This document shows positions 10,749 through 49,292 of a stretch of 64,000 nucleotides of DNA, in pieces. Location of the stretch: NCBI RefSeq assembly GCF_016899935.1, contig NZ_JACJJK010000004.1, positions 62,001 through 126,000 on the forward strand, in the 5' to 3' direction. The notes under the pieces are model-generated. The model did no database searches. It saw only the letters and a program-made list of their open reading frames with translations, and was not told where the DNA came from. Source of the DNA: Olsenella uli (GTDB taxonomy: Bacteria; Actinomycetota; Coriobacteriia; Coriobacteriales; Atopobiaceae). Position numbers and translations under genes: made by a program. The stretch's first letter is position 1. Each line of letters opens with the position of its first letter.

Positions 10749-10862
10749 CTACAATAACCGCAGGTCAGCGCGAGGTAAGCAAACGCCCCGGTCAGCACGC
10801 GTCTGACCGGGGCGTTTCTGTGGGCCTTTGAGAGCATACCACTGTCTACCTGCGGTTTTGTA
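10749..10862. repeat. CTGCGG-type inverted repeat flanking the rplI terminator
   Basis: CTACAATAACCGCAGGT (10749-10765) is inverted as ACCTGCGGTTTTGTAG (10847-10862), enclosing the terminator hairpin. Related segments occur at 20082-20103, 21766-21785 (AACCGCA...GCAGGTCAG) and 22152-22170 (TACCTGCGGTTCTGCTACG). Confidence 0.6.
10781..10820 (+). terminator. Terminator of the rpsF-rplI operon
   Basis: A perfect 15-bp stem (AAACGCCCCGGTCAG at 10781-10795, complement at 10803-10817) has a 7-nt loop. It ends in GTTTCTG rather than a long U tract. Confidence 0.82.
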
Positions 10863-11131
10863 GCTCGCGGGGAGCGCCCGGCTGCGCCCGTCGGCTCCCT
10901 CCGCCACGTTTTCTCCGCGCGCGGAAATGTTGAAAACCAGTCGAAAACATGGCCAAAGGGCGAGAAAAAAAGTTGTTGAAAACGTTGAAAGAGAGCAAAC
11001 TCCCCGTTCAGGCCACACGGATTTGCGACGCTCAGTGTAGAAGAGCGCCCGCCGCCAAAATGACCCCTTGACAACCGCCGAGAAGACGCGTCCCGCCCAT
11101 GTCGCGTCCTTCTCGCCCGGCGCGCTAGAAT
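10863..11131 (+). other. Non-coding leader region before dnaB
   Basis: No convincing gene is present. The stretch has A-rich patches with repeated GTTGAAAAC (near 10929, 10977 and 10984) and a TAGAAT -10 candidate at 11126-11131, shortly before the dnaB ribosome site. A TTGACA hexamer at 11068-11073 has no matching -10 at normal spacing. Confidence 0.4.
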
Positions 11132-11162: not shown

Positions 11163-12545
11163 TTGAGCGACTACGACGTCAACCCCACGCGCATGACGGT
11201 GGAGAGCGGCGCGGCCATGCCCCAGGACGTGGAGGCCGAGGCCTCGGTCCTCTCCGCCATGATGGTCTCGGCCGACGCGCTGCAGGAGTGCCTGATCGCC
11301 CTCGAGCCGGACGACTTCTACCTGCCCTCGCACCGCACGGTCTTCACCGCCATGAGGGAGATGTTCGACAAGAACCTCCCCGTGGACACCATCTCCCTCG
11401 CCGACTACCTCAAGTCAACCGGCGAGCTCGAGCGCGTGGGCGGCCGCAGCTTCCTGCTGGGCCTGGGTAACAACTCGCTCGCGCTCGTGGGCTGGCGGCG
11501 CCACGTGGAGATGCTCCACCGCGACACCACGCTGCGACGCATGATCAACGCCTCCGCGCAGATCACCGCGCTCGCCTTTGACGCGCCGGAGGACACCAAG
11601 GAGGTCGTGGACCGCGCCGAGCGGATGCTGCTCGACGTCACCAACCGCGACGTTCGCTCGAGCGAACAGTCGCTCGAGGAGATCATGAGCGACCTCTACG
11701 AGGAGCTCGGCGCCAACGCGGCCAACAAGGACCGCGTGCTCGGCGTCTCCACCGGGTTCCCCAAGATCGACGAGTGCCTGCTCGGCCTGCGGCCGGGACA
11801 GATGGTCGTCATCGGCGCGCGCCCGGGCGTGGGCAAGACGTCGTTCGCGCTCAACCTCATGACCAACGCGGCCTTTGCCGGGGCCTCCGTGGCGTTCTTC
11901 TCGCTCGAGATGTCCAAGGTGGAGATCGCGCAGCGCCTGCTCGCGGCCAATGCGCGCGTGGGCCTGCAGGAGATCCGCTCGGCGAACATCAGAAACGAGC
12001 AGTGGCCGCAGATCCTGCAGGCCACCAACGACCTCTCCCAGCTGGACATCGTGATCGACGACACGCCCGGCACCACCGTGACGGAGATCCGCGCCAAGGC
12101 GCGCCGCATCCTGCGCGGCAAGGAGCTCGGCCTCGTGATCGTGGACTACCTGCAGCTCATCTCCCCGCCGGCCGGCCAGCGCCGGGCGGACAGCCGCGCG
12201 ACGGAGGTCTCCGAGATGAGCCGCGGCATCAAGATCATGGCCAAGGACCTCGGCGTGCCCGTCGTGGCGCTCTCGCAGCTCAACCGTACCGTGGAGAACC
12301 GCACCGGCAAGCGGCCGCAGCTCTCCGACCTGCGCGAGTCCGGCTCGATCGAGCAGGACGCGGACATCGTCGCGCTGCTCGACCGCTCGATGAACGAGGA
12401 CGAGGCCGCGCGCGAGGACCGCCCGGCCATGAACGAGACCACCTTCATCATCGCCAAGAACCGCTCGGGCGCGCTCGCGGACATCCCGCTCACGTTCCTG
12501 CCGGGCTCCACCAAGTTCGTCGAGGTCGACAGCTTCCACGACTAG
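11163..12545 (+). CDS. dnaB: Replicative DNA helicase DnaB
   Basis: This 460-residue helicase has the N-terminal DnaB domain (PQDVEAEASVLSAMMVS), linker, and RecA-type motor with Walker A PGVGKTS near residue 222. Walker B is LGLVIVDYLQLI, and the C-terminal motif is GSIEQDADIVALLDR. It unwinds DNA ahead of the fork as a hexamer. I chose the TTG start at 11163 because GGAGGAGAGGAC precedes it directly. An ATG 30 nt downstream is the alternative. The gene lies in the conserved rplI-dnaB order but is separated by a terminator. No intein is present. Confidence 0.95.
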   Translation: MSDYDVNPTRMTVESGAAMPQDVEAEASVLSAMMVSADALQECLIALEPDDFYLPSHRTVFTAMREMFDKNLPVDTISLADYLKSTGELERVGGRSFLLGLGNNSLALVGWRRHVEMLHRDTTLRRMINASAQITALAFDAPEDTKEVVDRAERMLLDVTNRDVRSSEQSLEEIMSDLYEELGANAANKDRVLGVSTGFPKIDECLLGLRPGQMVVIGARPGVGKTSFALNLMTNAAFAGASVAFFSLEMSKVEIAQRLLAANARVGLQEIRSANIRNEQWPQILQATNDLSQLDIVIDDTPGTTVTEIRAKARRILRGKELGLVIVDYLQLISPPAGQRRADSRATEVSEMSRGIKIMAKDLGVPVVALSQLNRTVENRTGKRPQLSDLRESGSIEQDADIVALLDRSMNEDEAAREDRPAMNETTFIIAKNRSGALADIPLTFLPGSTKFVEVDSFHD

Positions 12546-16389: not shown

Positions 16390-16441
16390 GCACGTGAATT
16401 CACGTGCGGCCCGTTTTGCGCCAGAAGCCGAGAAGAACCCC
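16390..16441. repeat. 52-bp direct repeat, left copy
   Basis: It starts with the perfect 16-bp palindrome CACGTGAATTCACGTG and contains GAGAAGAAC. It differs at only two positions from 17689-17740. The pair brackets the ATPase gene. GTGAATTCACG also occurs at 32462-32472. Confidence 0.92.
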
Positions 16442-16480
16442 TGCCCGTGAATCCGCGTGCAGCGCGTCCCCGGCCTCCTG

Positions 16481-16537
16481 TTAAACTTGACAACCTTTGT
16501 TAAACTTGACAACCTTTGTTAAACTTGACAACCTTCG
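16481..16537. repeat. Three tandem 19-bp repeats upstream of the ATPase gene
   Basis: Three head-to-tail copies of TTAAACTTGACAACCTTTG start at 16481, 16500 and 16519; the last has one change. Each contains a perfect TTGACA hexamer. The array ends 35 bp before the ATPase ATG. Confidence 0.96.
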
Positions 16538-16572: not shown

Positions 16573-17664
16573 ATGCGAAGGATCAACCCGTTTAAGCCAA
16601 CGGCCGGCATGAATCCTCCCGAGCTCATCGGCCGAGACATGATCCTCGATGACTTCTCGGAGGCGCTCGAGAACGGTCCTGGCGCGCCCGATCGTCTGAT
16701 GCGCATCTCCGGTGTCCGCGGCGTCGGCAAGACGGTTCTCCTCAATGCGCTGGGAGACATCGCCCGCTCGAGGGGCATGACCGTGGTTGACGTGGCCTCA
16801 AACCCCGAGTTCTGTGAGCGGATCCTGCATGCGCTGCAGGAGCGGAGAAAGGTCGAGTCCCTTACGATTGCACCCTCGATCCTAGGCGTGAGCCTGGGTT
16901 CGGCAGAGCTGGCCAGGCCCTCGACGGAGCTCGGCGAGGCGATGCTCGCCGTCGCAAAGTGCGGCGGACTGCTCGTCACGCTCGACGAGATTCAGGACGC
17001 GCAAATCGACGAGCTTCGCGCGCTGGGAAACGAGGTCCAGCTGCTGATTCGCCGTGGGGCAAACGTCGCCTTTGCGTTTGCGGGGCTTCCCGCCGCAGTT
17101 GACGGGGCGGTCGGCGTGGAGACGCTGACCTTCCTCCAGAGGGCGCGGCGCGTGGAGCTGACCAAGCTCGGCACCGATGAGGTTGAGGCGTCCTTCGAGG
17201 AGACGATTCGCCAGTCTGGCGGCACGGCGGCCCCAGGTGTGTCGCGCCTTCTTGCCGACGCCGCCGTGGGGTATCCCTTCATGGTCCAGCTCGTGGGGTA
17301 CTACACGTGGCAGGCAAGCGCGCGGAGGAAATCGGACACGATCGAACTTGCGGACGCGCGCAGGGGAATCGCCGTTGCCCGCAAGAGCTTTGATGAGATG
17401 GTGATAGAGCCCGCCCTGCGGCGCCTGCCCCAGAGGCAGATCGAGTACCTTCTCGCGATGGCCGCCTGCGAGGGCGAGGTCGTCTCGAGCGGAGAGGTTG
17501 CCGCGCAGATGGGTTGCAGCGCGCGTGACGTGGGGACATACCGAAAGCGCCTGCTCGACGCCGCGCTCATCGAGCAGGTCGGCTATGGCCGCGCGACGTT
17601 TGCCATCCCCTATATGCGCGACTACCTGCGCGAGCATCACGACGAGCTGGCGTTGTCGGACTGA
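16573..17664 (+). CDS. AAA-family ATPase with C-terminal winged-helix region
   Basis: This 363-residue ATPase of the archaeal-type/STAND-like group has Walker A GVRGVGKT (residues 47-54) and Walker B GLLVTLDEIQDA near 127. A sensor-like FAFAGLPAAV follows, and a C-terminal helix-turn-helix-like region (SSGEVAAQMGCSARDVGTYR) suggests DNA contact. ATG 16573 has GAGAGGAGGCAGGGG upstream. The frame extends upstream into the tandem repeats from a TTG, but that part is repeat sequence. The gene lies between two 52-bp direct repeats, which suggests cassette-like gain. Function is unknown. Confidence 0.82.
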   Translation: MRRINPFKPTAGMNPPELIGRDMILDDFSEALENGPGAPDRLMRISGVRGVGKTVLLNALGDIARSRGMTVVDVASNPEFCERILHALQERRKVESLTIAPSILGVSLGSAELARPSTELGEAMLAVAKCGGLLVTLDEIQDAQIDELRALGNEVQLLIRRGANVAFAFAGLPAAVDGAVGVETLTFLQRARRVELTKLGTDEVEASFEETIRQSGGTAAPGVSRLLADAAVGYPFMVQLVGYYTWQASARRKSDTIELADARRGIAVARKSFDEMVIEPALRRLPQRQIEYLLAMAACEGEVVSSGEVAAQMGCSARDVGTYRKRLLDAALIEQVGYGRATFAIPYMRDYLREHHDELALSD

Positions 17665-17688: not shown

Positions 17689-17740
17689 GCACGTGAATTC
17701 ACGTGCGGCCCGTTTTTCGTCAGAAGCCGAGAAGAACCCC
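17689..17740. repeat. 52-bp direct repeat, right copy
   Basis: See 16390-16441. It is followed directly by a second perfect palindrome, CTCGTGAATTCACGAG. It lies 24 bp after the ATPase stop. Confidence 0.92.
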
Positions 17741-17844
17741 CTCTCGTGAATTCACGAGTGCCGGCGCATGGGACCCGCCCCGCCGCCCGCGCGCCCCGTT
17801 GCCCTATCATGGAGCGAGAAAAGCGACAGTCCCGAGGAGGACCC

Positions 17845-18594: not shown

Positions 18595-18675
18595 CTACAT
18601 TTTCGGGCTCAACCCCACTACATTTTCGGGGAAAACTCACTACATTTTCGGGCTCAACCCCACTACATTTTCGGG
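18595..18675. repeat. Four direct repeats upstream of the DUF4143 gene
   Basis: CTACATTTTCGGG occurs four times, starting at 18595, 18618, 18640 and 18663, a 22-23 bp period of about two helical turns. Two of the spacers are the same (CTCAACCCCA). The array ends 46 bp before the ATG. Confidence 0.96.
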
Positions 18676-18721: not shown

Positions 18722-20014
18722 ATGGACATAGATGGCGCCCCATACATTCCCCGCTTAATCGACCAAGTTGTCGACCGGCATCTTGCTGCATTTGGTGCCG
18801 TGGAGATCACGGGCACCATGTGGTCGGGAAAAACCTGGACCTCACGCGCGCATGGCGCCAGCCGTGTGACCCTCGACAATCCCCAGGCCCGCTCGCTCGC
18901 CGAGATAGATCCCGAGGCGGTCCTACGGGGAGCCGCACCTCACATCATCGATGAGTGGCAGGAGATTCCCTCGATATGGGATCTTGTGCGGAACAAGGTT
19001 GACGCGTCCCCCTCCCAAAGAGGCCTCTTCATCCTCACGGGGTCATCTTCGCCGGCTAAGAACAAGGTGCACCATACGGGGTCTGGGCGAATATCCCGCC
19101 TGAGGATGTGGCCGATGTCCCTCGCGGAACTCGGAATGTCAAACGGGACGGTCTCTCTCAGGGGTCTGTTTGACGGCAGGTTTGAGAGCCGCCCGGTGGA
19201 GACGAGCCTCGACCAGCTTGCATCGTCTATCTGTCGGGGTGGCTGGCCTGCCTCGGTTGACCTTCCGGATGATCTGGCGACGTTGATTCCTCAGCAGTAT
19301 CTTGACGCGCTCTTTGCAAAGGACGATGTTCGTGCCCCGGGAACGGAGCGCGAGCTCCGAAGCTTCCTCCGCTCCCTTGCAAGAAATGTGGGCAGCGCCG
19401 TTACGCTCAGAGTTCTTGCCAAGGACATGGGTCTCAGTGAAAGGGCCGGGACCTCTCGTGACGCAAACGAGCGTCGCGTCCGAGCGTTCCTCGACTATTT
19501 CCTCGGACGTTACGTGGTCTGTGAGCTGCATGGGTGGGATGCTCCCATCAAATCTCCCAGTCGGCTCAGAACCAAGCCCAAGCACTGCTTTGCCGACCCG
19601 TCCCTTCCGGCGAGCTTGCTGGGCGTGGACAGAACGACGCTTCTGGACAACACGCAGCTCTTCGGGCAGCTTTTCGAGGAACTCTGTCTTCGTGACCTGC
19701 GGGTGTACGCCTCGGTGCTGGAAGGGTCCCACCCAGACTCTCTTTCGTATTACCGTGACGCGGACGGCCTTGAGGTTGACGCCGTCATCGAGCTTCGCGA
19801 CGGACGCTGGGGAGCGATCGAGATCAAGCTGGGGGCAAACAAGGTCGAGGAAGCTCAGGCCAGCCTATTGAGACTAAGAAACAAGGTCTCCGCAAACCCA
19901 GCGGCAAGGAACCCCGAGCCAAGCTTTCTCCTGGTTCTCGTGGGAAAGACCGATTATTGCTACCGCACTCCTGAAGGGGTGCTCGTGGCGCCGATTACTG
20001 AGCTCACTGCGTAG
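18722..20014 (+). CDS. DUF4143 ATPase with PD-(D/E)XK-like C-terminus
   Basis: This 430-residue protein has an AAA_14-type N-terminal ATPase with Walker A GTMWSGKT (31-38) and Walker B HIIDEWQE (74-81). A linker helix-turn-helix-like region (VTLRVLAKDMGLSERAGTS) follows. The C-terminal DUF4143 domain includes LEVDAVIELR...AIEIKLGAN; the D...E-x-K arrangement is the PD-(D/E)XK nuclease pattern. Function of this common family is unknown. Codon use is less GC-biased than in nearby housekeeping genes, which fits acquisition. ATG 18722 is preceded by GAAGG and by the four CTACATTTTCGGG repeats. Confidence 0.85.
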   Translation: MDIDGAPYIPRLIDQVVDRHLAAFGAVEITGTMWSGKTWTSRAHGASRVTLDNPQARSLAEIDPEAVLRGAAPHIIDEWQEIPSIWDLVRNKVDASPSQRGLFILTGSSSPAKNKVHHTGSGRISRLRMWPMSLAELGMSNGTVSLRGLFDGRFESRPVETSLDQLASSICRGGWPASVDLPDDLATLIPQQYLDALFAKDDVRAPGTERELRSFLRSLARNVGSAVTLRVLAKDMGLSERAGTSRDANERRVRAFLDYFLGRYVVCELHGWDAPIKSPSRLRTKPKHCFADPSLPASLLGVDRTTLLDNTQLFGQLFEELCLRDLRVYASVLEGSHPDSLSYYRDADGLEVDAVIELRDGRWGAIEIKLGANKVEEAQASLLRLRNKVSANPAARNPEPSFLLVLVGKTDYCYRTPEGVLVAPITELTA

Positions 20015-20037
20015 CGACATGCCCTTTGATATATACG

Positions 20038-20168
20038 TGATATAGAGCTGATAAAGAGAATTCAGGGCACCACGCGCGAGAAGAACCACAAAGAAGCAGG
20101 TCAGGGCCTTGCCTCTTCGTTCAACACGCTCCCGCTGACGCGAAGATGATAGTGAGTGATATAGAGAA
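20038..20168. repeat. ~130-bp direct repeat, left copy
   Basis: It begins TGATATAGAGCTGATAAAGA, passes through ACGCGCGAGAAGAACC and GCAGGTCAG, and ends GATAGTGAGTGATATAGAGA. The ends are nearly identical to 21719-21850 and the centre has diverged. It lies between the DUF4143 stop and the AlbA-type gene's 3' end. Confidence 0.88.
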
Positions 20169-20214
20169 CCACCCAGATTCACGCTCGCGCCCGCGTCCAG
20201 ACCCGCGCGCGCCC

Positions 20215-21678
20215 CTAGCTCCACGCCGGAACGTACCTCCGATAACGGCTCCCCGCGTCGGGGTCCTCGTCCTTGATGAGCCCGTGCTCACAGCACTCGC
20301 GAATGAGCCGCGACACCGCAAGCCTGCTTTTCTGCGAGTCGTCCAGCCCAAACCGCTCGCGCACGCTTTGGTTGCTGATGGACGAGCGCTGCGCGAACAT
20401 CAGGCACGCGTGCCAGTAGACGGCCGCCATGCGCTGCCGCTTGGTCATCCGGTCAAATCCTCCCCCGCAGAAGAGCGTGACGGTGGTCCCCTCGCCCTCG
20501 ACGGAGCGAATCTCCGGGGAGAGCAGGTGCGCGGCCTCGCATGCCTCGATGGTCACGTCCCAGCCCGTGCCCTCCTCCTCGCAGATGTCCATGAGCCTCA
20601 GCATGTCCACGAGCCGCCCGTTGCGCGTCTTGGGGAGCGCGTTGAGAATGCGCTCCTCCGGAACGAGCAGCGTGCCCGGGTTGGAGAACTCGAGCCGGTC
20701 CTCAAAGACATGAACCTCGGGATATTGCATCGTGTTGGAGAGATCCTGGTGAATCACCGTGTTGGCAAGCAGCTCCCTCACGGCCGCCCGAGGAAAGGCG
20801 CTTCGCACCCGTCGATACATGCCTTCAAGCTCCTCGTGCGCGGGGGTGACGGACATGAGAAACTCCTCGGCCGCGGGCAGCGCCGTCACATAGCCCTCGT
20901 CAAAGAAGCGGTCGTCGATGATCGCCAGCCTCGACGTCCCATCAAACCGCACGACCCTCAACTGACGTCGCCGCAGCCCGGGAAAGTCGGTGAGGCGTTT
21001 GGCAATGAGCAGCGCTCCGAGGTTCGAGATAGAGTACCGCCCGTTGTCCTGCGCAAGAAGAAGTTCCTGAGACACAAGGTCACCAAGAACAGCGTTGGCG
21101 TCAGAAGGGGGCCGCAGGCCAAGTGCGTCATAGTACGCCTCGAAGTTCAGAAGGTCGCCGACTTCGTCCGCGCGGACGTCCTCTTTGGCGGCGAGTCCCT
21201 CAAAGTCCCGAGTCTGCAGACGCCTCCAGAGCTCGGCCTCGCGTTCGGAGCCGCTCTCAAGACGCGTGGTGCTGGAGCCCTCCCGAATGTAGGCCACGCC
21301 CTCGTACGTCACCGGCTGGCGCACGGCGGCCCAGATGGTGAGGATGACAAGGCGCTTGCCGTCCAGATGGGTCTCGGAGAACTCATAGGTTACGTTCGAG
21401 GAAAGGACGCGCTTGAGCCAGATGGGCAGGAGCTGGTTGCCCACCTTCATGCTGAGGGGACGAAACTCCGTTCCCACAAGCTCATGCGACCCGTCGGCAA
21501 CACCCCAGATCTTATAGGCGCAGTCTCTCCCGCAATAGGCGGCGGAGTTCGCAAGAGCGGAAATGTCCCGTGCGATGGGGATGCGGTCTTGGTTGTCCGT
21601 CTTGAACTCGAGCCACTCGGTCTCCTCGGGCAGTTGTGAGAGCGAGAGAAGAAGCTCGTTCATGGTTTCGTCGCTCAT
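20215..21678 (-). CDS. AlbA/Schlafen-type ATP-binding transcriptional regulator-like protein
   Basis: This 487-residue protein has an N-terminal AlbA_2/Schlafen-like domain (EETEWLEFKTDN, then REGSSTTRL). A GHKL-like segment (RELLANTVIHQDL...VHVFEDRLEFSNPGTL) and a C-terminal winged-helix stretch (FGLDDSQKSRLAVSRLIREC) follow. Such proteins are annotated as putative DNA-binding/ATP-binding regulators; their role is unclear. ATG 21678 follows GGAGGCACC. Its promoter region on the minus strand is the right ~130-bp repeat, with CTCTATATCA repeated. The gene lies between direct repeats, like the AAA ATPase upstream. Confidence 0.85.
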   Translation of the reverse strand: MSDETMNELLLSLSQLPEETEWLEFKTDNQDRIPIARDISALANSAAYCGRDCAYKIWGVADGSHELVGTEFRPLSMKVGNQLLPIWLKRVLSSNVTYEFSETHLDGKRLVILTIWAAVRQPVTYEGVAYIREGSSTTRLESGSEREAELWRRLQTRDFEGLAAKEDVRADEVGDLLNFEAYYDALGLRPPSDANAVLGDLVSQELLLAQDNGRYSISNLGALLIAKRLTDFPGLRRRQLRVVRFDGTSRLAIIDDRFFDEGYVTALPAAEEFLMSVTPAHEELEGMYRRVRSAFPRAAVRELLANTVIHQDLSNTMQYPEVHVFEDRLEFSNPGTLLVPEERILNALPKTRNGRLVDMLRLMDICEEEGTGWDVTIEACEAAHLLSPEIRSVEGEGTTVTLFCGGGFDRMTKRQRMAAVYWHACLMFAQRSSISNQSVRERFGLDDSQKSRLAVSRLIRECCEHGLIKDEDPDAGSRYRRYVPAWS

Positions 21679-21718
21679 GGTGCCTCCGGAAGGGTCCACG
21701 ATGCGGATTGATATAGAG

Positions 21719-21850
21719 ATGATATAGAGCTGATAAAGAGAATTCAAGGCACTACGCGCGAGAAGAACCGCAAATCCGCAGGTCAGAGCTGTGTACTTCC
21801 GGCCGATCCGCCTTTGGTGACACGAGAATGATAGTGAGTGATATAGAGAA
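21719..21850. repeat. ~130-bp direct repeat, right copy (promoter side of the AlbA-type gene)
   Basis: Same ends as 20038-20168. GATATAGAG is tandem here (ATATAGAGATGATATAGAGC) and recurs at the far end. It lies 40 bp upstream of the gene's ATG. Confidence 0.88.
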
Positions 21851-22296
21851 TCGCTCCCGAGGTGCCCTTCTCGGGCCTTGACGCCCGCTATGAAGATTCT
21901 ATGTGTTTCGGAGAAGTGACGTTGAGGCACCGTTTGTCGAAGATGCAAAACGAGGCCCCTGCCCCATTTAGGGACCCTCCTGCAATCTATATAAAACCTG
22001 AATACTTAATCGCTGCTGAAAAGTATGTTCTCAAAGGTAAACGGATTGCCGATAAGAACAACGGAATTGCAGATTCCTAAGACACATTGAGATGCGCATC
22101 AGAGGTACACGAGAAGAACCCTGATGTGGGGGAGGGTATATAGCAGCTAATCTACCTGCGGTTCTGCTACGAAAGTACCACCTAGCTAACCGAAATCTAA
22201 CAGGAAACTCTCGACGGTTGGTTTAGACTGTCACGAGTCTAGTTCTGTGGGCCCTGCCATATCTGTGCGTGGGGTCGGGTGTTCGGGAGGTTCTGA
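21851..22296 (+). other. AT-richer intergenic region before the giant adhesin
   Basis: No convincing gene is present. The 21900-22090 stretch is clearly AT-richer than its surroundings. A GAGAAGAAC copy lies at 22111-22119, a TACCTGCGGTTCTGC repeat at 22153, and an inverted repeat TAGACT/AGTCTA at 22224-22241 that could be an operator. A TTGGTT hexamer (22218) is the only -35 candidate. Confidence 0.4.
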
Positions 22297-25200
22297 ATGC
22301 AGCACATGAAACACACCAACCGGGGGAGGGTTGCTTCCAGAGGACATCTGAAGCACTTCAGGACCGGGAACGGGCCTCTTTCTGAGAAGCTGAAGAAGGG
22401 CCTCGCCGGCGTCGGCGCACTGCTGGTTGCCGGTGCCGTGGTCGTGGGCGCGGTCGTCGGCTTCAACCAGGTGGCGGGTGCTGCCGGGACCACGGTGGTG
22501 GATCCCAACACCTCTGGCACGTGGGAGAACTTCACCAACCCCGGCGGCGTGACCTCCACGCAGAATGTGGGCCGCATCTGGACCGACAAGAGCGTGTTCA
22601 ACGGCAACTACACGTTCAGCGGCAGCGAGGATCTGAGCGGCCAGACGGTTAACAAGAGCAACGACTCAGACTTCTTGGTGAGTCTCTCGGCTCTCTCCTC
22701 CACCTCCAACCTCAAGACCACCACGACAACCACCACGCCGCTCGACATTGTGCTGGTTGTCGACACCTCTGGCTCGATGGATAACGGCCAGGGTGACAGC
22801 ATGGGGTCTGTTACTACCTATGAGCAGATTTACGGACAGAACCTCAATGGCAATCGCACCTATTATGTGTTGGTAGATGGCGAGTACGTTGCTGTCGAAG
22901 CCCATGGCGACTACTGGAACCGCTATTGGGCATCTGATGATGGCACGCAGTATACGCCCATCCAGAACCGCTGGGACGACGACCGATCTCACGTTCAGTT
23001 CTATCAGCGTGTGACGAAAAGCGTCAACAAGATGGAGGCGCTGCAGAACGCCGCGAATACGTTCGTCGATTCGGTTGCTGCCCTGAACGACGACATCAGC
23101 GATCCCAATCAGCAGCATCGCATCTCGCTGGTTAAGTTCGCCAGCGATGAGAGCAACACTATCGGGAACGGAACCAATTGGCAGGGGTACAACAATTCCC
23201 AGGTTGTGTCCGACCTGACTGCGTATACCAGCACTACCTCTTCGACGCTCAAGAACACCATTAATAGACTTTACGGTGAAGGTGCAACCCGCGCAGATTA
23301 TGGTTTGCATCAAGCGCAGCGTGTACTGACCGGCGAGGGCGACACCACTGGTGCGCGTTCAAACGCGAAGAAAATTGTCATTTTCTTCACTGACGGCAAC
23401 CCTACGAGCGGCAGCTCTTGGGAGGGCGATGTGGCTGCTCGGGCTATCAACTACGCGCACGATATCAAGGCGACGGGCGCGCAGATCTATAGCATCGGTG
23501 TGTTCCAAGGCGCGAATCCGAGTGACACGACTGGCAACTTCAACAGGTATATGAACGCCGTTTCCAGCAACTACAAGGATGCGGAGTGCGCTTCCAACGT
23601 AAATGTTGGCGAGTGGTGGAATCCTGAGTATGAGTGGCAACAGACCAATGATTTTAGCGACCTCAATTTGGGCGACCGCGCTGAGGGCGCTCAAGGCGAG
23701 GACGCTCCCGACTACTACTTCGCGGCGGGCGACGCTGATCAGCTGAGCCAGGTCTTCGATGACATCACCTCGTCCATTACCGAGGGCATCGGTTCTGGCT
23801 CGCCGATTGAGGAGACCACCTCGCAGGGCAACACCAATCCCGGTACGCTCACGTTCGAGGACCAGCTTGGCAACTACATGCAGGTGACGGGCACCGGTGC
23901 GGGTGCGGACAAGATTCAACTCGCCTATGGTGACCAGATTTACACTAGCGAGAGCAAGGCTACCGAAGACAACATTGACATCTATCACTTCGCCGACCAG
24001 ACGGTCGGTGGCAACGAGGTGTACGGTGAGGCTAACCTTTCCGACATCGTGGTGAGGGTCGAGCGCAGCACCGACCTTTCGGTAGGCGACAAGATCACCG
24101 TGACCCTTCCGGCGTCGCTGCTGCCCATGCGCCACTATGACGTGGACACCGACAACGGCACCATGACCGTGAAGGCGGCATACCCCGTGCGCGTGTTCTA
24201 CGGCGTGACGCTCAAGGCTGATGCAAAGACGGCTCTGGATTCCGCATCGGGCGATACCTATCAGGACATCCTGAACAACGTGGAAGTCTCCGAGGACGGC
24301 ACGCTCGACTTCTATTCCAACGCCTTTGCGGAGAACTCTGCCAGCGGCCTGACCACGGCCACGTTCACGCCCAGCGAGGGGAACAAGTTCTACTACTACA
24401 CAGAGAACACCCCGCTGTATGTGGACGAGGCCTGCCAGACGCGCGCCACGAGCAACAACATCGGCCGTTACGACACCGTCTACTACGCCGACACCTATTG
24501 GAAGACCGAGAACGGCGTCACGTCTGAGACGACGACGGGTGTGGTTGTCGATCGCAACGGCTCCGACTTCAGCAAGATTCAGTACGACTGGCAGGGCCAG
24601 GCATACATGCCTGCCCACACCCAGCGCGCCGATCGTCCCAGCACGCTGGTTTCCAACAAGGAGGATTTCGAGGGCGGCAACGCCACCGGCACCGCCAGCA
24701 GCGTGCTCGTTCCCTCGTGGAACGGCGACGGCACCGTGTCCCAGGCGCTGGGCAACAACGGCAAGCTCTCGCGTCCCGCTCCTGGCGACCTTGAGATCAA
24801 GAAGGAAGTTGACTGGGGCAACGCCTCCGACAGCACCAAGACCTCCAAGAACACCTTCACGTTCCAGGTGTCTCTTGCCACCGAGGGCGGCACGGCCCTG
24901 AGTGGTACCTACAACTACGCCGTGTACGGTGCCGGCGCTGACCCCGTTCGCACGGACACCATCTCCAACAACGGTACCGTAAGCATCACGCCCGACGAGC
25001 GCGTGCTGATCACGGGTCTGCCCGCCGGCACCACCTACACGGTGACCGAGCAGGGTGCCAACAGCAACGGCTTCACCACAACCGATAGCTCTACGGGCGA
25101 CGGTGCCAATACCACCGACGGCAAGGTCGAGGGTGCCATCGTTGCTGGCAGCCAGCAGTCGGTCTCCTTCAAGAACACGTACAACGCCGCTTCGGTGAAC

Positions 25201-28200
25201 CTCAACACCAAGGCTACGCTGCAGGTGCAGAAGAACCTGACCGGTCGCGATTGGCGCGCCACCGACGAGTTCACGTTCGAGATCGACGGCCTCGCCAACG
25301 TGGCGACGGGCGAGACCGCTCCTGAGCCTGAACAGACGACCGTCACCGTGACCGACGAGACTCCGAATCACACGGCGGCCTTCGGTGACATCACCTTCAC
25401 CAAGCCTGGCGAGTACCGGTATGCCATCACCGAGCACAACGACATCAACCCGATCGACGGCATCGACTATTCTGCCGCCCGCTATCGCGCGATTGTGACG
25501 GTGACGGACAACGGCACGGGCAACCTGGCGGTCGACTCGGTGACCATCGAGCAGCGTTTGAATGACGATGGCGAGCGACCCGATCAGCAGCCCACCATCA
25601 CCAGCAACACCGTGGTGTTCACCAACAACTACGACGTGGACAACGGCACCACCAACATCGACGGTACGAAGAACTACACCGACACCACCGGCGGCAACCC
25701 GATTGATGCCGACAAGTTCACCTTCCAGCTGAAGGCCGTGGGCGGCTTCGATACTGCCGCCGGCTCGACGAGCGGCTACACCATCGCCGCCGCCGACGTG
25801 CCGATGCCTGTGGGCGCCGACGCGAACCACGCCGTTACCACCACCAACACCGGTTACGGCTTCGGCTTCCCAACCATCAGCTATGACGGCAACGACGTGG
25901 GCAAGACCTTCGTGTACGAGGTGACCGAGCTCGCCGGCAAGGAATCCGGCATGAGCTATGACACCACGACCACGCACACGGTGCAGGTGGCTGTGACCGA
26001 GGCTGAGGATCCGGAGCACCCGGACCAGACGGTCATCGTGGCCACGCCGAACATGACGCCGGAAGAGGTCGTGTTCAACAACACCTATGACCCGACGGAC
26101 GCCACGCTTAAGGGCGAGGATGCCATCCACGGCACCAAGACTCTGACTGGCCGCGACATGCTGGAGGACGAGACCTTCTACTTCCAGCTGACCCAGACCG
26201 GTGGCCCAGCGACGGTCGACCCCGATGATGGCGACGCGTACGTGACCGTGCTGCAGAACCCGGAGACCGCAAAGGTTTCCGCCGGCGATGACGACATGGC
26301 CTTCAATTTCAGCGACCTGGCCTTCCCGCAGACCGGTGAGTACACCTTCACCGTCAACGAGGTGGCTGCCGATGGTAGCGAGCCGGAGGACGGCAGCGGT
26401 CTGACCTACGACAAGAACATCTGCACGGTTACTGTCAACGTGACCGACAACAAGCAGGGCGCTCTTGTCGCTGACGTGACCTACTCCAACCAGGGTCATG
26501 ACGAGACCGACCAGGCCGTGTTCACCAACACCTACAAGTCCAATATGGACTACGGCGCGACCGGTGCCGGCGGCATCAAGGTGACCAAGCAGATCCTGGA
26601 CCGCACGATGGCCGAGGGTGATTACACCTTCACCATCACCGGCGAGGGCGAGGCTGCTGAGCTGGTGACCGATGCCGATGCCAGCTTCACCAACACGGCC
26701 GCTGCCGTGGACGGCATCGTGACCATGGACAAGCTGCAGAGCCTGAAGTTCGATCAGGACGACGCCGGCAAGACCTTCACGTTCACCGTGGATGAGGCCG
26801 ACCCCGCCGAGGGACAGGCGATTGACGGTGTTACTTACGACAAGTCTCAGTACAAGGTCGAGATCGAGGTCGTAGACAACGGCAACGGCACCATGCACAC
26901 CGTGACCACGGTCACCAAGACCATGAAAGCCGCCGGAGAGCCGGAGAACGAGGTTGTGGTTGACCATGCCAACTCCGACGCTGACGGCTACGCCGCGCCG
27001 ACCTTCGGCTTTGTGAACGACTACAATCCCGGTTCCGTAACCATCGGTGAGGATGCGGGCAACCCGATCCAGGTCACCAAGACCGTGGCGGGTGCGCCTT
27101 CGCCTGCGGACGTGAACTACAGCTTCACGCTGAAGTTGACGAGCGACAACAAGTCCGGCATCTCCGAGGGCCTGACGCAGGAAGGTGACGCATGGGTTGC
27201 CCATGTGAGCACCAACGGCGTCATCAACCAGGATGCTGCGGACGGTACGCAGGACGACAGCCAGACGGTGACCTTCGGCAACATCACGTTCACCGAGCCC
27301 GGCACCTACACGTTCGAGGTGGCCGAGGACGCGCCTACCGCCGATGACGGCTGGACGTTCGACACTACGCCGAAGACCGTGACCGTGACGGTGAGCGACC
27401 TTAACGAGGACAACCAGTACGACGGCAACCTGCACATCGCCAGCGTTTCTGGCAGCCCCGTCCAGGTGACCAACCGCTACGAGGCGGAGCCTGTTGTCGT
27501 GGGCGGCGAGGGCGCCGAGCAGCAGATCACGGTAAAGAAGTCCGTGACAGGCGCTGATTCCACGGCCGACTTCACCTTTGACATCGCTCTGGTCGATGAG
27601 GACGATTCCAAGCGGAACAACGTCGAGGCTGTTGAGAGCCCGTATGACACTCAGACCACCATCGCCGACGGCGTGACCCAGGCGCAGTCCAAGACTGCGA
27701 CCTTCGGTGCGATCAAGTTCAAGGCCGAGGGTACCTACCAGTTCACCGTGACCGAGAACGGCGCGACCGACTTCAACGGTGGCTCCGACCGCAAGGGCTG
27801 GACCTACGACGAGCATTCCGTGACGGTGACCGTTACGGTGACCGATACCGATTACGACGGTCAGCTCGACGCCACGGTGACCTACGATAACTCCAAGGCT
27901 ACGACTGACACCGACAAGGCCGTGCAGGACGCCGCCGCCTTCACCAACAAGTACGTGCCCGCCGAGGTAACGACTGGTGATGACGCGACGACCGGCATTC
28001 AGGTGACCAAGAAGGTAACTGGCCACGACGCGATTGAGGCGTTCGACTTCTCGCTGAACCTGGCACAGGGCCAGGATGGTTCCAACGTGTTCGAGGGAAC
28101 GGGCGAGGACAAGACCCCCTTCGACGGCATGACGGTTACCACCTCTGAAGCCATCAAGAACGGCGCAACCGAGACCAAGACGTTCGACGGCATTACGTTC

Positions 28201-31200
28201 ACCGCAGCGGGCGACTACAAGTTCGTGATCGATGAGACGACCGAGACGACCCACGGTGGCTGGACGTATGACACCGACACCGCTGAGGTGACGGTCCACG
28301 TCAAGGACAGCGGCGAGGGCGCGCTCTACATCGACAGCATCGATGGCAACAACCCCGAGTTCGAGAATGTCTACAAGCTCCAGCCGGCCATGTTCCGCGC
28401 CGCCCGCTTCCAGCTCCAGGGCAACAAGGTCCTCGATGGCCGAAACTGGGAGCCAGGCGACGAGTTCACTTTCACGCTGACCCCCGGCCGTGGTGACAAC
28501 GTCGATGGCTCCGCGATGGCTGACGGTGAGGTTGCAGCAACCATGCCGACCTCAACTTCCGATACCATCCGCCCGGGCGACAACGATGGTTCCAGGGTGA
28601 CCGACAATTCTGCGCAGTTCACCTTCACTGACGAGCGCTACCCGGGTGAGGACATCGTTCCCGGACAAGATGCGGACGACACCTTCACCTACACCAAGCC
28701 GGGCACCTACCGCTATCTCATCCGCGAGACCAACCCGAACGTCTCCGAGGCCGGCTCGGGCATCCTGGGCGTGAGCTACGACCAGACCGTATACCGCCTG
28801 ACGGTTGTGGTTACCGATAACGGTGACGGCACCATGAGCGCTAAGGGCTCGTATACGAAGCGCAACGCCGACGGTACCTGGACCGAACTGACCGGTAGCA
28901 ACGAGGTCACGTTCACCAACAAGTACTCGTCCGACGAGGTCGACATCACCTTCAACGCGTTCAAGGTCCTGAAGGACCGTGAGACGAACATGGCGGACGG
29001 TGAGTTCACGTTCCACATGGAGTTTGCTGGTTGGGCTGCCAACGACGCGAACGCCGATCCTAACGTCGATGCAGATTGGACGATGGAAGACACCACGGAC
29101 GCCCCCAAGGCGGCCGAGGACACTGGCAACATCGTTCGTGGTGATGTGACCTTCGGCGAGATGCCGTTCACGAAGGACAACGTTGGCTACACCTATCGCT
29201 ACGCGATTACTGAGGTCAACGGAGGAAAAACGATCAACGGTGTGACCTACGACAACTCTACGCACTACGTGACCGCCAAGGTGACGAGTGAGCAGCAGCA
29301 GAATGCGGACGGAACCTTTACCGAGCACGTTCGCGTCGAGACGAGCGGCGAGGCCGAATGGAACGAGGAGACCGACACCGCTCCGACGACCGGCGCCATC
29401 TTCACCAACACATACGATGCCGGCTCCACGGATGTTGACACCGGTACTGCCGATGTTCAGCTGACCAAGGTGCTCGACGGTAAGGCATGGGACGGGGATA
29501 AGTTCACGTTCAAGATTGAGCCCGTCTCCAACGATGCGGGTATCGAGCTTGATCAACAGCCGATGCCCGACCCGACCGAGGTAACGGTTGACGCTGCGAC
29601 CGGCGAGGACGCGGAGGGTAACGATCAGGCGACCTTCTCGTTCGGAAACATTACCTACGACACCGAGGGCACCTATACCTATAAGGTGACCGAGGTTCCG
29701 GGCAAAAACGCTGGCATCACCTACTCGACGAACGAGGCTGAGGTCAAGGTGACGGTGGTCGACAACGATCAGGGTGGCTACACCACAGGTGTCACAGTTA
29801 CCAACAACGTCTTCACCAACGAGTACGCGAGCGAGCTCGACTACAACGGTGCAGAGGCTGGCATCAGCATCGTCAAGACCCTTGTGGGCCACGAGATGGG
29901 CGAGTTTAGCTTCACGGTGACTCCGTCTGATTCTGAGTCCGCCACCAAGCTGGGCATCGCTGAGGGTGGCGAGACCCTGACCGTCAAGAACGGCACCACC
30001 TCCGAGGACGGACTGTCTTCGGTGGGTAGTGTCGCCATGCTCGACGGCAAGGGTGAGCTGATGTTCAACCAGGGAGACGAGGGCAAGGAATACTCCTATA
30101 CGGTGCAGGAGGTTAAGCCCGACCCGGTTCCCGCTGGCTACACTTACGATGACACGGTCTACACCGTGACCATCACCACCAATGATGACGGTCAGGGCGG
30201 CATCGAGGTGTACACCAACGTCAAGGCAAACGACGGTAGCTTCGAGAAGACGTTTACCTACGACAACAATGACGACACCGAGAACGTGGCCGCATACATC
30301 CCGTTCGAGAACTCCTATAACGTCTCCGGCGAGCTCGGCGGCGAGGGTGAGACGAGAATCGTTGCCACCAAGCAACTGACCAACCGCCCGATGACGGATC
30401 GTGAGTTCCACTTCACGGTGGCCAATGTGGCCGATCCGGACAACGTTGTTTCCGACGGCTATAACGACGCCGACGGCAACATCACCTTCAGCGGCATCAG
30501 CTACAGCACGCAGCAGATGCAGAAGGACGTCCAGAACGGCCTTGCCAACCTTGGCACCGAGGACAACACCTACGTCTATCAGTACAGGGTGACCGAGGAC
30601 ACTGCGAAGCTCGCCGAGGGCGTTTCCGCGATTGACGTTAGGGGATTCCAGGTTGAGGTCACAGTGACCGATAACGGCGACGGCACGCTCGGCTTTGACG
30701 TGGCCTACCCCGATGATGCGGACGGTCTCACCTTCCGCAATACCTACGGTGAGGGCGAGCAGGGCCAGGCGACTATCCGCATCAACGGCGTCAAGGGCTA
30801 CAAGACGAACGGCCTCGCCGGCGCTCCTGACATCAACGGCAAGTTCACCTTCACGCTGACCGGCTCCGACGGCGCCCCGATGCCCGAGGGCACAACGGAC
30901 GGCAAGAAGACCGCCACCAACGACAAGGGCAACGTGGACTTTGGTGACATCACCTACACGATGGAGAACGTGTTCGGCGACACGGGCAGCCAGGACGTGG
31001 TGACCAACGCCGAGGACGGCATCGCCACCCAGTCCGCCGAGCGCATCAAGACCTTCACCTATACGGTGACCGAGACCGGCTCCGTCGAGGGTGTTGACAA
31101 CGACCCCAACTCCACGGACACCTTCACCGTCACGGTGACCGACCACGGCAACGGCAGCCTCACGGTGGAGACGAGTTCCAACCAGGATCACGGCCTCGCG

Positions 31201-32097
31201 CTCTTCGGCTTCACCAACGAGTACAACGTCGACCCGGTGACCAGCTCGCCCACGGCTGACGGCGGCCTCACCATCACCAAGGAGCTCACCGGTCGCGACA
31301 TGGCCGAGGGCGAGTTCACGGCGGTCATGGTGGACGCCAACGACGCGCAGGTCTCCCAGGGCGCCAATGACGCCTCGGGCAACATCGCGCTCGACGCGAT
31401 CGAGTTCACCAAGCCCGGCGACTACACCTACGACATCTACGAGGCGCCCGGCAGCAAGGGTGGCGTGACCTACGACACCGCCCACTACACGGCCACGGCG
31501 CACGTGAAGGACAACGGCAACGGCACCATGTCCGTGACGTGGGACTTCGCCAACGCCTCCGGCGACCCGATTGACGCCGTCACCTTCCACAACACCTACG
31601 AGGCCGCGCCCACGAGCGTTCTTCTCGGCGGCTCCAAGGTGCTCGAGGGCCGCGATCTTGCCGCGGACGAGTTTGAGTTCCAGCTGGCCGACAAGGACGG
31701 CAACGTCCTCCAGACCGTCACCAACGACGAGAACGGCAGCTTCTGCTTCGACTCGATCGCCTTTGACCAGGCCGGCACGTACGAGTACGTGATCTCCGAG
31801 GTCGCGGGCGACGCCGAGGGCGTGACCTATGACGACACGACCTACGCGGTCAAGGTTGTCGTGACCGACGGCGGCGAGGGCAAGCTCACGGTGTCCGAGC
31901 TCACCTACAACGGCGAGGCGTCGCTCCCGGTGTTCCACAACACCTACGTGGAGCCCGCTGAGCCCGCCGAGCCGGAGAAGCCGGAGCTCCCGCAGACCGG
32001 CGACGCCACCAACACGACCCTCCCGGCGGTCCTCGCCGTGGGCGGCGTGGCCCTGGTGGCCGGAACGATCGCTTGGACGCGCCGTAAGAACAGGTAG
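22297..32097 (+). CDS. Giant VWA-domain, multi-repeat LPQTG-anchored surface adhesin
   Basis: This is a 3266-residue cell-wall protein. A long basic leader (1-35) and hydrophobic segment (36-56) end near VAGA-AGTT, about residue 62. A VWA domain follows, with the metal-site motif DTSGS at 156-160 (D156, S158, S160). From about residue 830 there are about 16 pilin-type repeats of the Spy0128/FctA/Cna-B kind. Each starts with a Lys strand such as TKxLTGR and ends in F-N-Y (FTNTY, FHNTY), the Lys-Asn pair that forms isopeptide bonds in this family. The anchor is LPQTG at 3231-3235, a hydrophobic span and RRKNR. GGGAGGTTCTGA precedes the ATG. Codon use is relaxed in the VWA and middle repeats and becomes genome-like after about 30.7 kb. 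It probably mediates host or matrix binding. Confidence 0.93.
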   Translation: MQHMKHTNRGRVASRGHLKHFRTGNGPLSEKLKKGLAGVGALLVAGAVVVGAVVGFNQVAGAAGTTVVDPNTSGTWENFTNPGGVTSTQNVGRIWTDKSVFNGNYTFSGSEDLSGQTVNKSNDSDFLVSLSALSSTSNLKTTTTTTTPLDIVLVVDTSGSMDNGQGDSMGSVTTYEQIYGQNLNGNRTYYVLVDGEYVAVEAHGDYWNRYWASDDGTQYTPIQNRWDDDRSHVQFYQRVTKSVNKMEALQNAANTFVDSVAALNDDISDPNQQHRISLVKFASDESNTIGNGTNWQGYNNSQVVSDLTAYTSTTSSTLKNTINRLYGEGATRADYGLHQAQRVLTGEGDTTGARSNAKKIVIFFTDGNPTSGSSWEGDVAARAINYAHDIKATGAQIYSIGVFQGANPSDTTGNFNRYMNAVSSNYKDAECASNVNVGEWWNPEYEWQQTNDFSDLNLGDRAEGAQGEDAPDYYFAAGDADQLSQVFDDITSSITEGIGSGSPIEETTSQGNTNPGTLTFEDQLGNYMQVTGTGAGADKIQLAYGDQIYTSESKATEDNIDIYHFADQTVGGNEVYGEANLSDIVVRVERSTDLSVGDKITVTLPASLLPMRHYDVDTDNGTMTVKAAYPVRVFYGVTLKADAKTALDSASGDTYQDILNNVEVSEDGTLDFYSNAFAENSASGLTTATFTPSEGNKFYYYTENTPLYVDEACQTRATSNNIGRYDTVYYADTYWKTENGVTSETTTGVVVDRNGSDFSKIQYDWQGQAYMPAHTQRADRPSTLVSNKEDFEGGNATGTASSVLVPSWNGDGTVSQALGNNGKLSRPAPGDLEIKKEVDWGNASDSTKTSKNTFTFQVSLATEGGTALSGTYNYAVYGAGADPVRTDTISNNGTVSITPDERVLITGLPAGTTYTVTEQGANSNGFTTTDSSTGDGANTTDGKVEGAIVAGSQQSVSFKNTYNAASVNLNTKATLQVQKNLTGRDWRATDEFTFEIDGLANVATGETAPEPEQTTVTVTDETPNHTAAFGDITFTKPGEYRYAITEHNDINPIDGIDYSAARYRAIVTVTDNGTGNLAVDSVTIEQRLNDDGERPDQQPTITSNTVVFTNNYDVDNGTTNIDGTKNYTDTTGGNPIDADKFTFQLKAVGGFDTAAGSTSGYTIAAADVPMPVGADANHAVTTTNTGYGFGFPTISYDGNDVGKTFVYEVTELAGKESGMSYDTTTTHTVQVAVTEAEDPEHPDQTVIVATPNMTPEEVVFNNTYDPTDATLKGEDAIHGTKTLTGRDMLEDETFYFQLTQTGGPATVDPDDGDAYVTVLQNPETAKVSAGDDDMAFNFSDLAFPQTGEYTFTVNEVAADGSEPEDGSGLTYDKNICTVTVNVTDNKQGALVADVTYSNQGHDETDQAVFTNTYKSNMDYGATGAGGIKVTKQILDRTMAEGDYTFTITGEGEAAELVTDADASFTNTAAAVDGIVTMDKLQSLKFDQDDAGKTFTFTVDEADPAEGQAIDGVTYDKSQYKVEIEVVDNGNGTMHTVTTVTKTMKAAGEPENEVVVDHANSDADGYAAPTFGFVNDYNPGSVTIGEDAGNPIQVTKTVAGAPSPADVNYSFTLKLTSDNKSGISEGLTQEGDAWVAHVSTNGVINQDAADGTQDDSQTVTFGNITFTEPGTYTFEVAEDAPTADDGWTFDTTPKTVTVTVSDLNEDNQYDGNLHIASVSGSPVQVTNRYEAEPVVVGGEGAEQQITVKKSVTGADSTADFTFDIALVDEDDSKRNNVEAVESPYDTQTTIADGVTQAQSKTATFGAIKFKAEGTYQFTVTENGATDFNGGSDRKGWTYDEHSVTVTVTVTDTDYDGQLDATVTYDNSKATTDTDKAVQDAAAFTNKYVPAEVTTGDDATTGIQVTKKVTGHDAIEAFDFSLNLAQGQDGSNVFEGTGEDKTPFDGMTVTTSEAIKNGATETKTFDGITFTAAGDYKFVIDETTETTHGGWTYDTDTAEVTVHVKDSGEGALYIDSIDGNNPEFENVYKLQPAMFRAARFQLQGNKVLDGRNWEPGDEFTFTLTPGRGDNVDGSAMADGEVAATMPTSTSDTIRPGDNDGSRVTDNSAQFTFTDERYPGEDIVPGQDADDTFTYTKPGTYRYLIRETNPNVSEAGSGILGVSYDQTVYRLTVVVTDNGDGTMSAKGSYTKRNADGTWTELTGSNEVTFTNKYSSDEVDITFNAFKVLKDRETNMADGEFTFHMEFAGWAANDANADPNVDADWTMEDTTDAPKAAEDTGNIVRGDVTFGEMPFTKDNVGYTYRYAITEVNGGKTINGVTYDNSTHYVTAKVTSEQQQNADGTFTEHVRVETSGEAEWNEETDTAPTTGAIFTNTYDAGSTDVDTGTADVQLTKVLDGKAWDGDKFTFKIEPVSNDAGIELDQQPMPDPTEVTVDAATGEDAEGNDQATFSFGNITYDTEGTYTYKVTEVPGKNAGITYSTNEAEVKVTVVDNDQGGYTTGVTVTNNVFTNEYASELDYNGAEAGISIVKTLVGHEMGEFSFTVTPSDSESATKLGIAEGGETLTVKNGTTSEDGLSSVGSVAMLDGKGELMFNQGDEGKEYSYTVQEVKPDPVPAGYTYDDTVYTVTITTNDDGQGGIEVYTNVKANDGSFEKTFTYDNNDDTENVAAYIPFENSYNVSGELGGEGETRIVATKQLTNRPMTDREFHFTVANVADPDNVVSDGYNDADGNITFSGISYSTQQMQKDVQNGLANLGTEDNTYVYQYRVTEDTAKLAEGVSAIDVRGFQVEVTVTDNGDGTLGFDVAYPDDADGLTFRNTYGEGEQGQATIRINGVKGYKTNGLAGAPDINGKFTFTLTGSDGAPMPEGTTDGKKTATNDKGNVDFGDITYTMENVFGDTGSQDVVTNAEDGIATQSAERIKTFTYTVTETGSVEGVDNDPNSTDTFTVTVTDHGNGSLTVETSSNQDHGLALFGFTNEYNVDPVTSSPTADGGLTITKELTGRDMAEGEFTAVMVDANDAQVSQGANDASGNIALDAIEFTKPGDYTYDIYEAPGSKGGVTYDTAHYTATAHVKDNGNGTMSVTWDFANASGDPIDAVTFHNTYEAAPTSVLLGGSKVLEGRDLAADEFEFQLADKDGNVLQTVTNDENGSFCFDSIAFDQAGTYEYVISEVAGDAEGVTYDDTTYAVKVVVTDGGEGKLTVSELTYNGEASLPVFHNTYVEPAEPAEPEKPELPQTGDATNTTLPAVLAVGGVALVAGTIAWTRRKNR

Positions 32098-49151: not shown

Positions 49152-49292
49152 GGTTATGCGCAGCGCCGGAGGTTATGCGCGGCGCGGCGAGGGGGCGTTC
49201 TTCTCGCCGTGCGGTCTAGCTGCGGATATAGAAGACTGACCTGTGCGCACAACCTCTGCTGGTGCGCATAACCTACGCCAGTGCGCATAACC
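49152..49292. repeat. GGTTATGCGC inverted-repeat array after fic
   Basis: GGTTATGCGC occurs at 49152 and 49171, and in inverse form at 49245 (GCGCACAACC, one change), 49264 and 49283. The array starts 15 bp after the fic stop and contains GTTCTTCTC (49197) and is followed by GAGAAGAAC (49293). Confidence 0.92.

Follow-up and report, generated by a model that had tools for sequence, protein, structure and literature searches.

In the window, which is the whole stretch of 64,000 nucleotides from Olsenella uli that was analysed, a Schlafen-type gene is the sole gene between two direct repeats. A repeat scan of the window found this pair (R) at 20019-20168 and 21701-21850, with a length of 150 bp, 78% ungapped identity and a spacing of 1682. 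A second bracketed gene encodes an AAA_16 ATPase, and a DUF4143/AAA_14 ATPase gene locates between the two brackets. The features are listed below.

16390..16457, no strand: left repeat of the ATPase bracket, 68 bp (palindrome GCACGTGAATTCACGTGC, CGAGAAGAACC)
16479..16535, plus strand: three tandem copies of TGTTAAACTTGACAACCTT preceding the ATPase gene, outside the ATPase direct repeat
16573..17664, plus strand: AAA_16 ATPase gene (ORF list, Pfam)
17689..17756, no strand: right repeat of the ATPase bracket, 68 bp, 90% identical to the left one
18722..20014, plus strand: DUF4143/AAA_14 ATPase gene (Pfam, PADLOC)
20019..20168, minus strand: R_dn, the downstream repeat past the 3' end of the Schlafen gene (repeat scan, alignment)
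20027, 20038, 20049 and 20157, minus strand: iterons of R_dn
20077..20086, plus strand: CGAGAAGAAC in R_dn, a copy of a genome-wide motif
20215..21678, minus strand: Schlafen-type gene, 487 amino acids (ORF list, Pfam, alignment)
21701..21850, minus strand: R_up, the upstream repeat and promoter region of the Schlafen gene (repeat scan, alignment)
21709, 21720, 21731 and 21839, minus strand: iterons of R_up
21759..21768, plus strand: CGAGAAGAAC in R_up, a copy of the same motif

The start of the Schlafen gene was set at MSDETMNE by alignment with relatives. Its product belongs to the Schlafen AlbA_2 family, with an SLFN_AlbA_2 domain (Pfam E 2e-13, 51.3 bits against a cut-off of 25.3) and, C-terminal to it, a HATPase_c_4 domain (E 2e-16, 60.1 bits against a cut-off of 26). 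By analogy, the C-terminus of the protein is assumed to bind DNA. No NCBIfam family matched the protein, no relative was found among the viral contigs searched, and none of the PADLOC families of known anti-phage defence matched at E ≤ 0.01. A profile search of solved structures returned one relative, 3lmm (E 1.2e-4), and an AlphaFold model built from 6 sequences was poor (pLDDT 61, pTM 0.46). Relatives are present in 68 plasmid records at E ≤ 1e-20 and in 5 records of phages or satellite phages at E ≤ 1e-10, 4 of the latter covering at least 95% of the query. Among the matches listed, which are 12 of these 73 records (8 of them plasmids), identity is 33-40% over most of the length. Four of five such relatives examined have no bracket, and the fifth, on a Pseudosulfitobacter plasmid, has a weak direct repeat of 97 bp and 68% identity. 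We also notice two short fragments resembling the Schlafen C-terminus in G005 (contig C1, L098) at 10782-10865 and ~12396-12452 (57-63%, E 2e-7 and 8e-4), which look like a degraded remnant interrupted by other sequence. The gene of a 3266-amino-acid LPXTG-type surface protein (assigned by eye, 22297-32097) adjoins the Schlafen cassette, and the cassette of G009 too adjoins the apparent end of such a gene.

Each R is composed of two iteron clusters, one at either end, in the same orientation and with an 11-bp period, and ~85 bp in between. The iterons are of the 11-bp type TCTCTATATCA; on the minus strand, CTCTATATCA occurs at 21709, 21720 and 21839 in R_up and at 20038 and 20157 in R_dn. The cluster distal to the gene start is TTCTCTATATCACTCACTATCAT and the proximal one is TTCTCTTTATCAGCTCTATATCATCTCTATATCA. 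The centre contains CTGACCTGCGGATTTG and GTTCTTCTCG, and in R_up CGAGAAGAAC reads on the plus strand and CTGACCTGCGGATTTG on the minus strand. Matches between R_up and R_dn per 10-bp bin are 7,7,10,10,9,9,9,7,8,4,5,5,7,10,10. The original prediction, which had described direct repeats of about 130 bp with similar ends and diverged centres, is thereby borne out in its pattern (9-10 matches near the ends, 4-5 in mid-repeat), and the length is corrected to about 150 bp. In an alignment of five R copies (own genome and G009), 41 of the 46 columns in iterons do not vary, compared with 26 of 85 columns in the centre (Fisher p 4e-11); this value is indicative, because the iteron blocks were picked post hoc from the alignment and the copies are related.

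R_up carries a sigma-70-like site, TTGAAT-17-TATCAT (minus strand, 21747..21719), which overlaps the iterons and is the sole such site in 19900-22300. Taken alone it is weak evidence, because shuffled sequences expect 0.8 by chance. R_dn reads CTGAAT where R_up has the -35 hexamer. We find, as had been proposed, that one copy is the promoter region and the other lies beyond the 3' end of the gene. A DNA search of the 2.1-Mb genome hit two places (E 1.4e-90, the query itself, and 3.6e-29) and no third copy of R. With 2 genome copies, this R was rejected as a dispersed element; G009 holds 3 copies, and each genome has them at one locus.

Family members with at least 56% identity over most of the length are present in 5 of 31 genus genomes (own genome G000, G009, G019, G015 and G025). 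All five are bracketed by R under a strict test (at least 90 bp and at least 75% identity).

Own genome: 150 bp, 78%
G009: 158 bp, 90%
G019: 111 bp, 96%
G015: 135 bp, 86%
G025: 140 bp, 94%

The same strict test gives no bracket at 30 NUDIX loci or 29 arsC loci. A looser test (at least 40 bp and at least 70%) gives 5 of 5 for the Schlafen gene, 0 of 30 for NUDIX and 1 of 29 for arsC, where the controls are neighbours of such elements and no random sample; the one arsC locus is that of G024, which carries another repeat type there. When 334 predicted own genes were scanned gene by gene with loose settings, 5 were flagged; the scan used a longer ORF for the Schlafen gene, which is therefore not among them. 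A 39% Schlafen relative in G021 is not bracketed. Among more distant SLFN loci, 2 of 24 pass the strict and 6 of 24 the looser test, with tRNA-Met overlap in one of the two strict passes (L027) and three of the six looser ones. We rejected the brackets at L020, L025, L027 and L095 because their repeats overlap tRNA genes, and that at L112 because its repeat pair is partly inside a predicted gene.

The iteron letters follow the lineage of the gene: TCTCTATATCA in the own genome and G009, TTCTAGTTGCC/TTCTAGTTATC in G015 and G025, and TTCTACTTATC in G019. The 11-bp period is kept across these lineages although the letters differ. R copies of one locus are more alike (77-95%) than copies of one R type from different genomes (69-79%), a pattern suggestive of concerted evolution. 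In G015, each R has a terminator-like hairpin with a T-run (1.6 expected by chance), R_up alone has two promoter-like TTGCCT-17-TATCAT sites (0.6 by chance), and R_dn holds fewer iterons than R_up. A stretch like the G015 hairpin was read by eye in G025.

To compare the same site with and without the gene, we examined the 3' side of arsC in 29 loci obtained from the 31 genus genomes. Repeat, Schlafen gene and repeat stand there in two of them (G015 and G025); the gene beyond the cassette is cutC or a pentapeptide-repeat gene (by eye), so that only the arsC side is constant. Nine loci (G030, G018, G029, G008, G026, G017, G028, G004 and G016) have one R of the Schlafen type and no gene, and in these nine genomes, several of which are incomplete, no long match above 50% to the Schlafen protein was found. 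Two further loci have a single R of other iteron types, namely one R of the GGTTATGCGCA type in G024 and, in G003, one R with other iterons yet the shared ACCTGCGGTTCTTCTCGG core. G020 has another gene at the site, and at the 15 loci of 29 without R a script found no iteron pair with at most 3 mismatches in 600 bp. Hence one repeat without the gene, which the original prediction had asked for, does occur in this comparison between species of the genus, and the identical organisation in all relatives that would have spoken against it is not what the genus genomes show.

The iteron-pair pattern has 19 matches in 11 of the 31 genomes and none for its reversed control. It fits seven of the nine single copies at arsC with 0, 1, 1, 2, 2, 2 and 2 mismatches, and the arsC copy of G008 and that of G028 with more than 2, so the single-copy iterons are partly decayed. 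G008 has an extra single R of the G019 type behind the NUDIX gene. Along the single copies the letters change from R_up-like to R_dn-like, a switch that is in part a trivial result of orthologous flanks and of the counting of gaps.

In a tree of arsC and NUDIX DNA from 28 genomes (midpoint root, several nodes weakly supported), the gene carriers G015 and G025 fall in distant clades, each next to single-R genomes. Parsimony prefers 2 gains, into one-R sites, over 12 losses, and 6 of the 12 losses would fall in subtrees holding a single R of the Schlafen type; the tree labels and the count treat G003 as without R, which leaves the 6 subtrees unaffected. The divergence of the Schlafen gene tracks the site and not the species, since the own genome and G025 are 89.5% identical in two core genes and 61.5% in the Schlafen gene, whereas G015 and G025 are 81.9% and 79.2% identical, respectively.

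The AAA ATPase had been proposed to share the layout of the Schlafen cassette. The bracket itself is present, and the tandem TGTTAAACTTGACAACCTT copies turned out to lie outside the direct repeat, unlike those of the Schlafen gene. The two bracketed genes had also been called adjacent; they are not, as the NUDIX gene and the DUF4143 ATPase gene stand between them. The latter matches the PADLOC candidate PDC-S01 (E 2e-59) and has no bracket in the window-wide repeat scan; four tandem CTACATTTTCGGG copies are located upstream of it at 18595-18675. At the purD-NUDIX site, 4 of the 30 NUDIX loci (G004, G014, G016 and G029) have the two-palindrome repeat once and no ATPase, and G003 has this repeat and a longer interval with another gene. 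In G025 the ATPase is present (83%) and that repeat is missing, and in G015 the ATPase is 76% identical over the part seen, on a stretch too short to cover the repeat position. It may be that the repeat at this site is simply purD's own terminator, which was copied along with the insertion.

The earlier note had also asked for the same repeats around other genes, and G018 provides them: copies of one further repeat type, whose iteron is GGTGTACATACCCTC, flank a Fic gene, a nuclease-like gene and a HicB-containing pair. The Fic gene is bracketed at L117:2765-4485 (G018:C6; PADLOC SoFic, 3e-73). At L117:8498-10739 of the same contig, three copies of one repeat separate the HicB-containing pair and the nuclease-like gene in an array-like order. 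The nuclease-like gene represents a restriction-endonuclease-like family of 315 amino acids (L090:4654-5598, that is G000:C49:64654-65598, with orthologs L243-L260). No Pfam family is above the cut-off for it, REase_MTES_1575 appears below the cut-off in 8 of 19, and nothing credible was found among solved structures. Its orthologs are bracketed in 16 of 19 cases at 40 bp/70% or more and in 12 of 19 at 90 bp/75% or more, often by a dispersed inverted-iteron type; among weaker relatives the looser test passes 3 of 11 and the strict test none of 11.

This dispersed type has tens of copies with genome-specific letters, the iteron of the nuclease-like gene being GGTTATGCGCAC/GGTGTACATACCC. Exact GGTTATGCGCAC occurs 21 times in the own genome and 17-32 times in four others (controls 0). 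The 21 own copies are distributed over 13 places, comprising 12 single elements and one pair around the nuclease-like gene. With at most one mismatch, GGTGTACATACCCTC occurs 93, 75, 77 and 122 times in G012, G017, G018 and G022 (reversed controls 0, and 1 in one other genome). A single intergenic element of the GGTTATGCGCAC type, with inverted iterons around a core, is found in the window at 49152-49292. We tried YTASCTGCGGA as a genome-wide signal and rejected it (4 exact copies against 3 for the reversed control; 31 against 91 with one mismatch). The term 'shared core' is accordingly used on the basis of repeat comparison only, because this string did not beat its reversed control. Separately, CCTAAAAGGGG has 37 copies in a 464-kb sample of the own genome where ~0 are expected, and repeats with AAAGGGG and GGACGTGTTTT are found at L115:12630-17784 (G009:C30); perhaps these are one family.

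The sequence GAGAAGAAC, found in both R_up (21760) and R_dn (20078), had been taken as a part of the cassette. Its presence stands, and we rejected it as a cassette marker because genomes throughout the genus contain the motif hundreds of times. The own genome has 568 copies of CGAGAAGAAC and 11 of the reversed pattern. Each of the 25 genus genomes counted shows an excess of CGAGAAGAAC, with 257-698 copies (control 8-21); 15 genomes of other families have 2-126 copies (control 8-39), and a few of these are mildly enriched, e.g., 126 against 39 and 65 against 18. The 464-kb sample contains 111 CGAGAAGAAC and 136 CGAGAAGGAC, where 10.5 and 12.4 are expected, and 48 of the 111 are intergenic, with intergenic DNA being ~9% of the sequence according to a crude gene caller. 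CGAGAAGRAC is found on both strands, for example at 7608, 16429, 22110, 34448/34461 and 47458 of the window, and 34448/34461 is a close inverted pair. Being genome-wide, the motif is not special to R, and the R copies of G009 have no exact CGAGAAGAAC. From its distribution, CGAGAAGRAC may serve in these Actinobacteria as a DNA uptake sequence or a signal of that kind, and we speculate that CGAGAAGAAC in R helps uptake of cassette DNA. ComEC (PF03772) is present in 31 of 31 genus genomes, and also in 10 of 14 control genomes including E. coli. A narrow look at the literature, in partial text, gave no prior report of an uptake-like motif in Actinobacteria.

We consider it probable that the Schlafen locus is a cassette of one autoregulated gene, which can be lost and gained by homologous recombination through its duplicated control region R. 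The bracket, the iterons, the homogeneity within loci and the single R at the orthologous site are read directly from the DNA. R, as promoter and operator, flanks the gene on both sides in the same orientation; in its centre, several lineages carry the genus-wide CGAGAAGAAC, and G015 has a putative terminator. We infer that the regulator-like AlbA_2/HATPase_c_4 product is an iteron-binding protein that regulates its own promoter. Recombination between the two R, most simply of the RecA type, would delete the gene and leave one R, and the best reading of a single R is a scar or docking site. In the reverse direction, a molecule with the gene and R would recombine with a single R, thus inserting the gene, and delivery is perhaps by natural transformation. 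The R copies would be kept alike by gene conversion and selection on the iterons, and any benefit, such as defence, is presumed.

A different account makes R_dn a second operator with a standing role in looping, insulation or stopping read-through, mobility being incidental. It would explain why conservation is much stronger in the iterons than in the centre, R_dn included, and why each G015 R has a terminator-like hairpin. We regard it as rather unlikely, since it does not predict that a single R is kept at the orthologous site of nine gene-less genomes, and R_dn has fewer iterons in G015 and no -35 match in the own genome. Less likely still is that R is primarily an intergenic repeat of the REPIN or Correia kind, moved in trans, with brackets arising from two nearby landings or around a cognate gene. 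In its favour, the inverted-iteron type is dispersed, with 13 places in the own genome and 75-122 GGTGTACATACCCTC copies per genome in four genomes (reversed controls 0-1), and the nuclease-like gene is bracketed in 16 of 19 orthologs, often by this type; the Schlafen R, however, has direct iterons and is confined to one locus with two copies in the own genome and three in G009.

The third copy in G009 leads to the last account. It stands 638 bp past the second, in a duplicated stretch of 322 bp (77%), as might be expected if the bracket were a neutral leftover of a tandem duplication of repeat and gene, with one gene copy lost and no continuing exchange. Such an event must recur, each time with a different R, in every bracketed lineage and across several gene families, and it leaves the nine genomes with a single R and no gene unexplained, so we hold it to be very improbable. 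The recombining one-gene cassette is the reading that we prefer.

A broader form of this preferred reading is tentative, and we think it more doubtful than the cassette itself. Integrase-free cassettes bracketed by iteron elements might form a genus-wide system, in which a gene docks at a single element, the iteron dialect and the encoded protein evolve together, and exchange proceeds by DNA uptake that the motif within the element signals. It would carry unrelated genes (Schlafen, AAA ATPase, Fic, the HicB-containing pair and the restriction-endonuclease-like gene), some of kinds linked to phage defence, and several elements would share a core (ACCTGCGG-like plus CGAGAAGRAC). If the cassette reading is right, single genes, including candidate defence genes, can be gained and dropped via a duplicated control region alone. 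The single repeat that stays behind would then be a legible trace, comparable to the solo LTRs of lost retroelements, and gene turnover could be followed by sequence in a gut genus that has been little studied. The result also points to an uptake-like motif in Actinobacteria.

Compared with known systems, the cassette is not classed as an insertion sequence, a REPIN or a known defence system, because its gene has no transposase domain, its repeats are direct and PADLOC gives no match. Transposons and IS elements differ from it in that its repeats are direct and the bracketed gene has no Pfam transposase domain. REPIN/RAYT systems are described, in the abstract of PMC3116915, as extragenic repeats that differ between genomes and have a gene beside some of them. 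The GGTTATGCGCA/GGTGTACATACCC type resembles them, being inverted, extragenic and genome-specific with a gene beside some copies. In contrast, the 11-bp iterons of the Schlafen R are direct, this R has 2-3 copies and it encloses a whole gene, and the Schlafen gene is no tyrosine transposase by Pfam; the dispersed inverted doublet of a REPIN is not seen in it, and the separate GGTTATGCGCA type fits better. Correia repeat enclosed elements, according to excerpts of PMC2649163, are ~100-155 bp long with terminal repeats around a core and can carry promoters. R is similar in size, terminal repeats and promoter, but differs in bracketing a gene.

Neisserial DNA uptake sequences are 10-mers with hundreds of copies on both strands, intergenic enrichment and some close inverted pairs (excerpts of PMC2397512). 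CGAGAAGRAC resembles them in count, strands and intergenic bias, a likeness that concerns only the motif inside R; it differs in its letters and in belonging to an actinobacterial genus. The protein resembles Schlafen AlbA_2 ATP-binding proteins (PF04326 and PF13749) in having both domains in the same order, and differs from them in its bracket, which four of the five relatives examined lack. In the open literature, nothing was found under the words Schlafen/AlbA with direct repeats or Coriobacteriia intergenic repeats, and repeat-bracketed gene cassettes gave, in the partial texts returned, only work judged unrelated.

In the minimal mobile elements of Neisseria, different genes or none stand between the same conserved host genes, genome by genome. 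The 3' side of arsC has this kind of alternative content by a conserved flank: a Schlafen cassette in some genomes, one R with any of three iteron types in others, a different gene in one, and no R in the rest. Variable content at a conserved site, an over-represented uptake-like motif in the bacteria and no integrase seen are common to both systems. Unlike minimal mobile elements, which are named in excerpts of PMC2649163, the Schlafen gene has its own control region on both sides as a direct repeat, and one copy persists where the gene is missing. The Schlafen cassette would thus operate as a minimal mobile element does, but with its own bracket for recombination.
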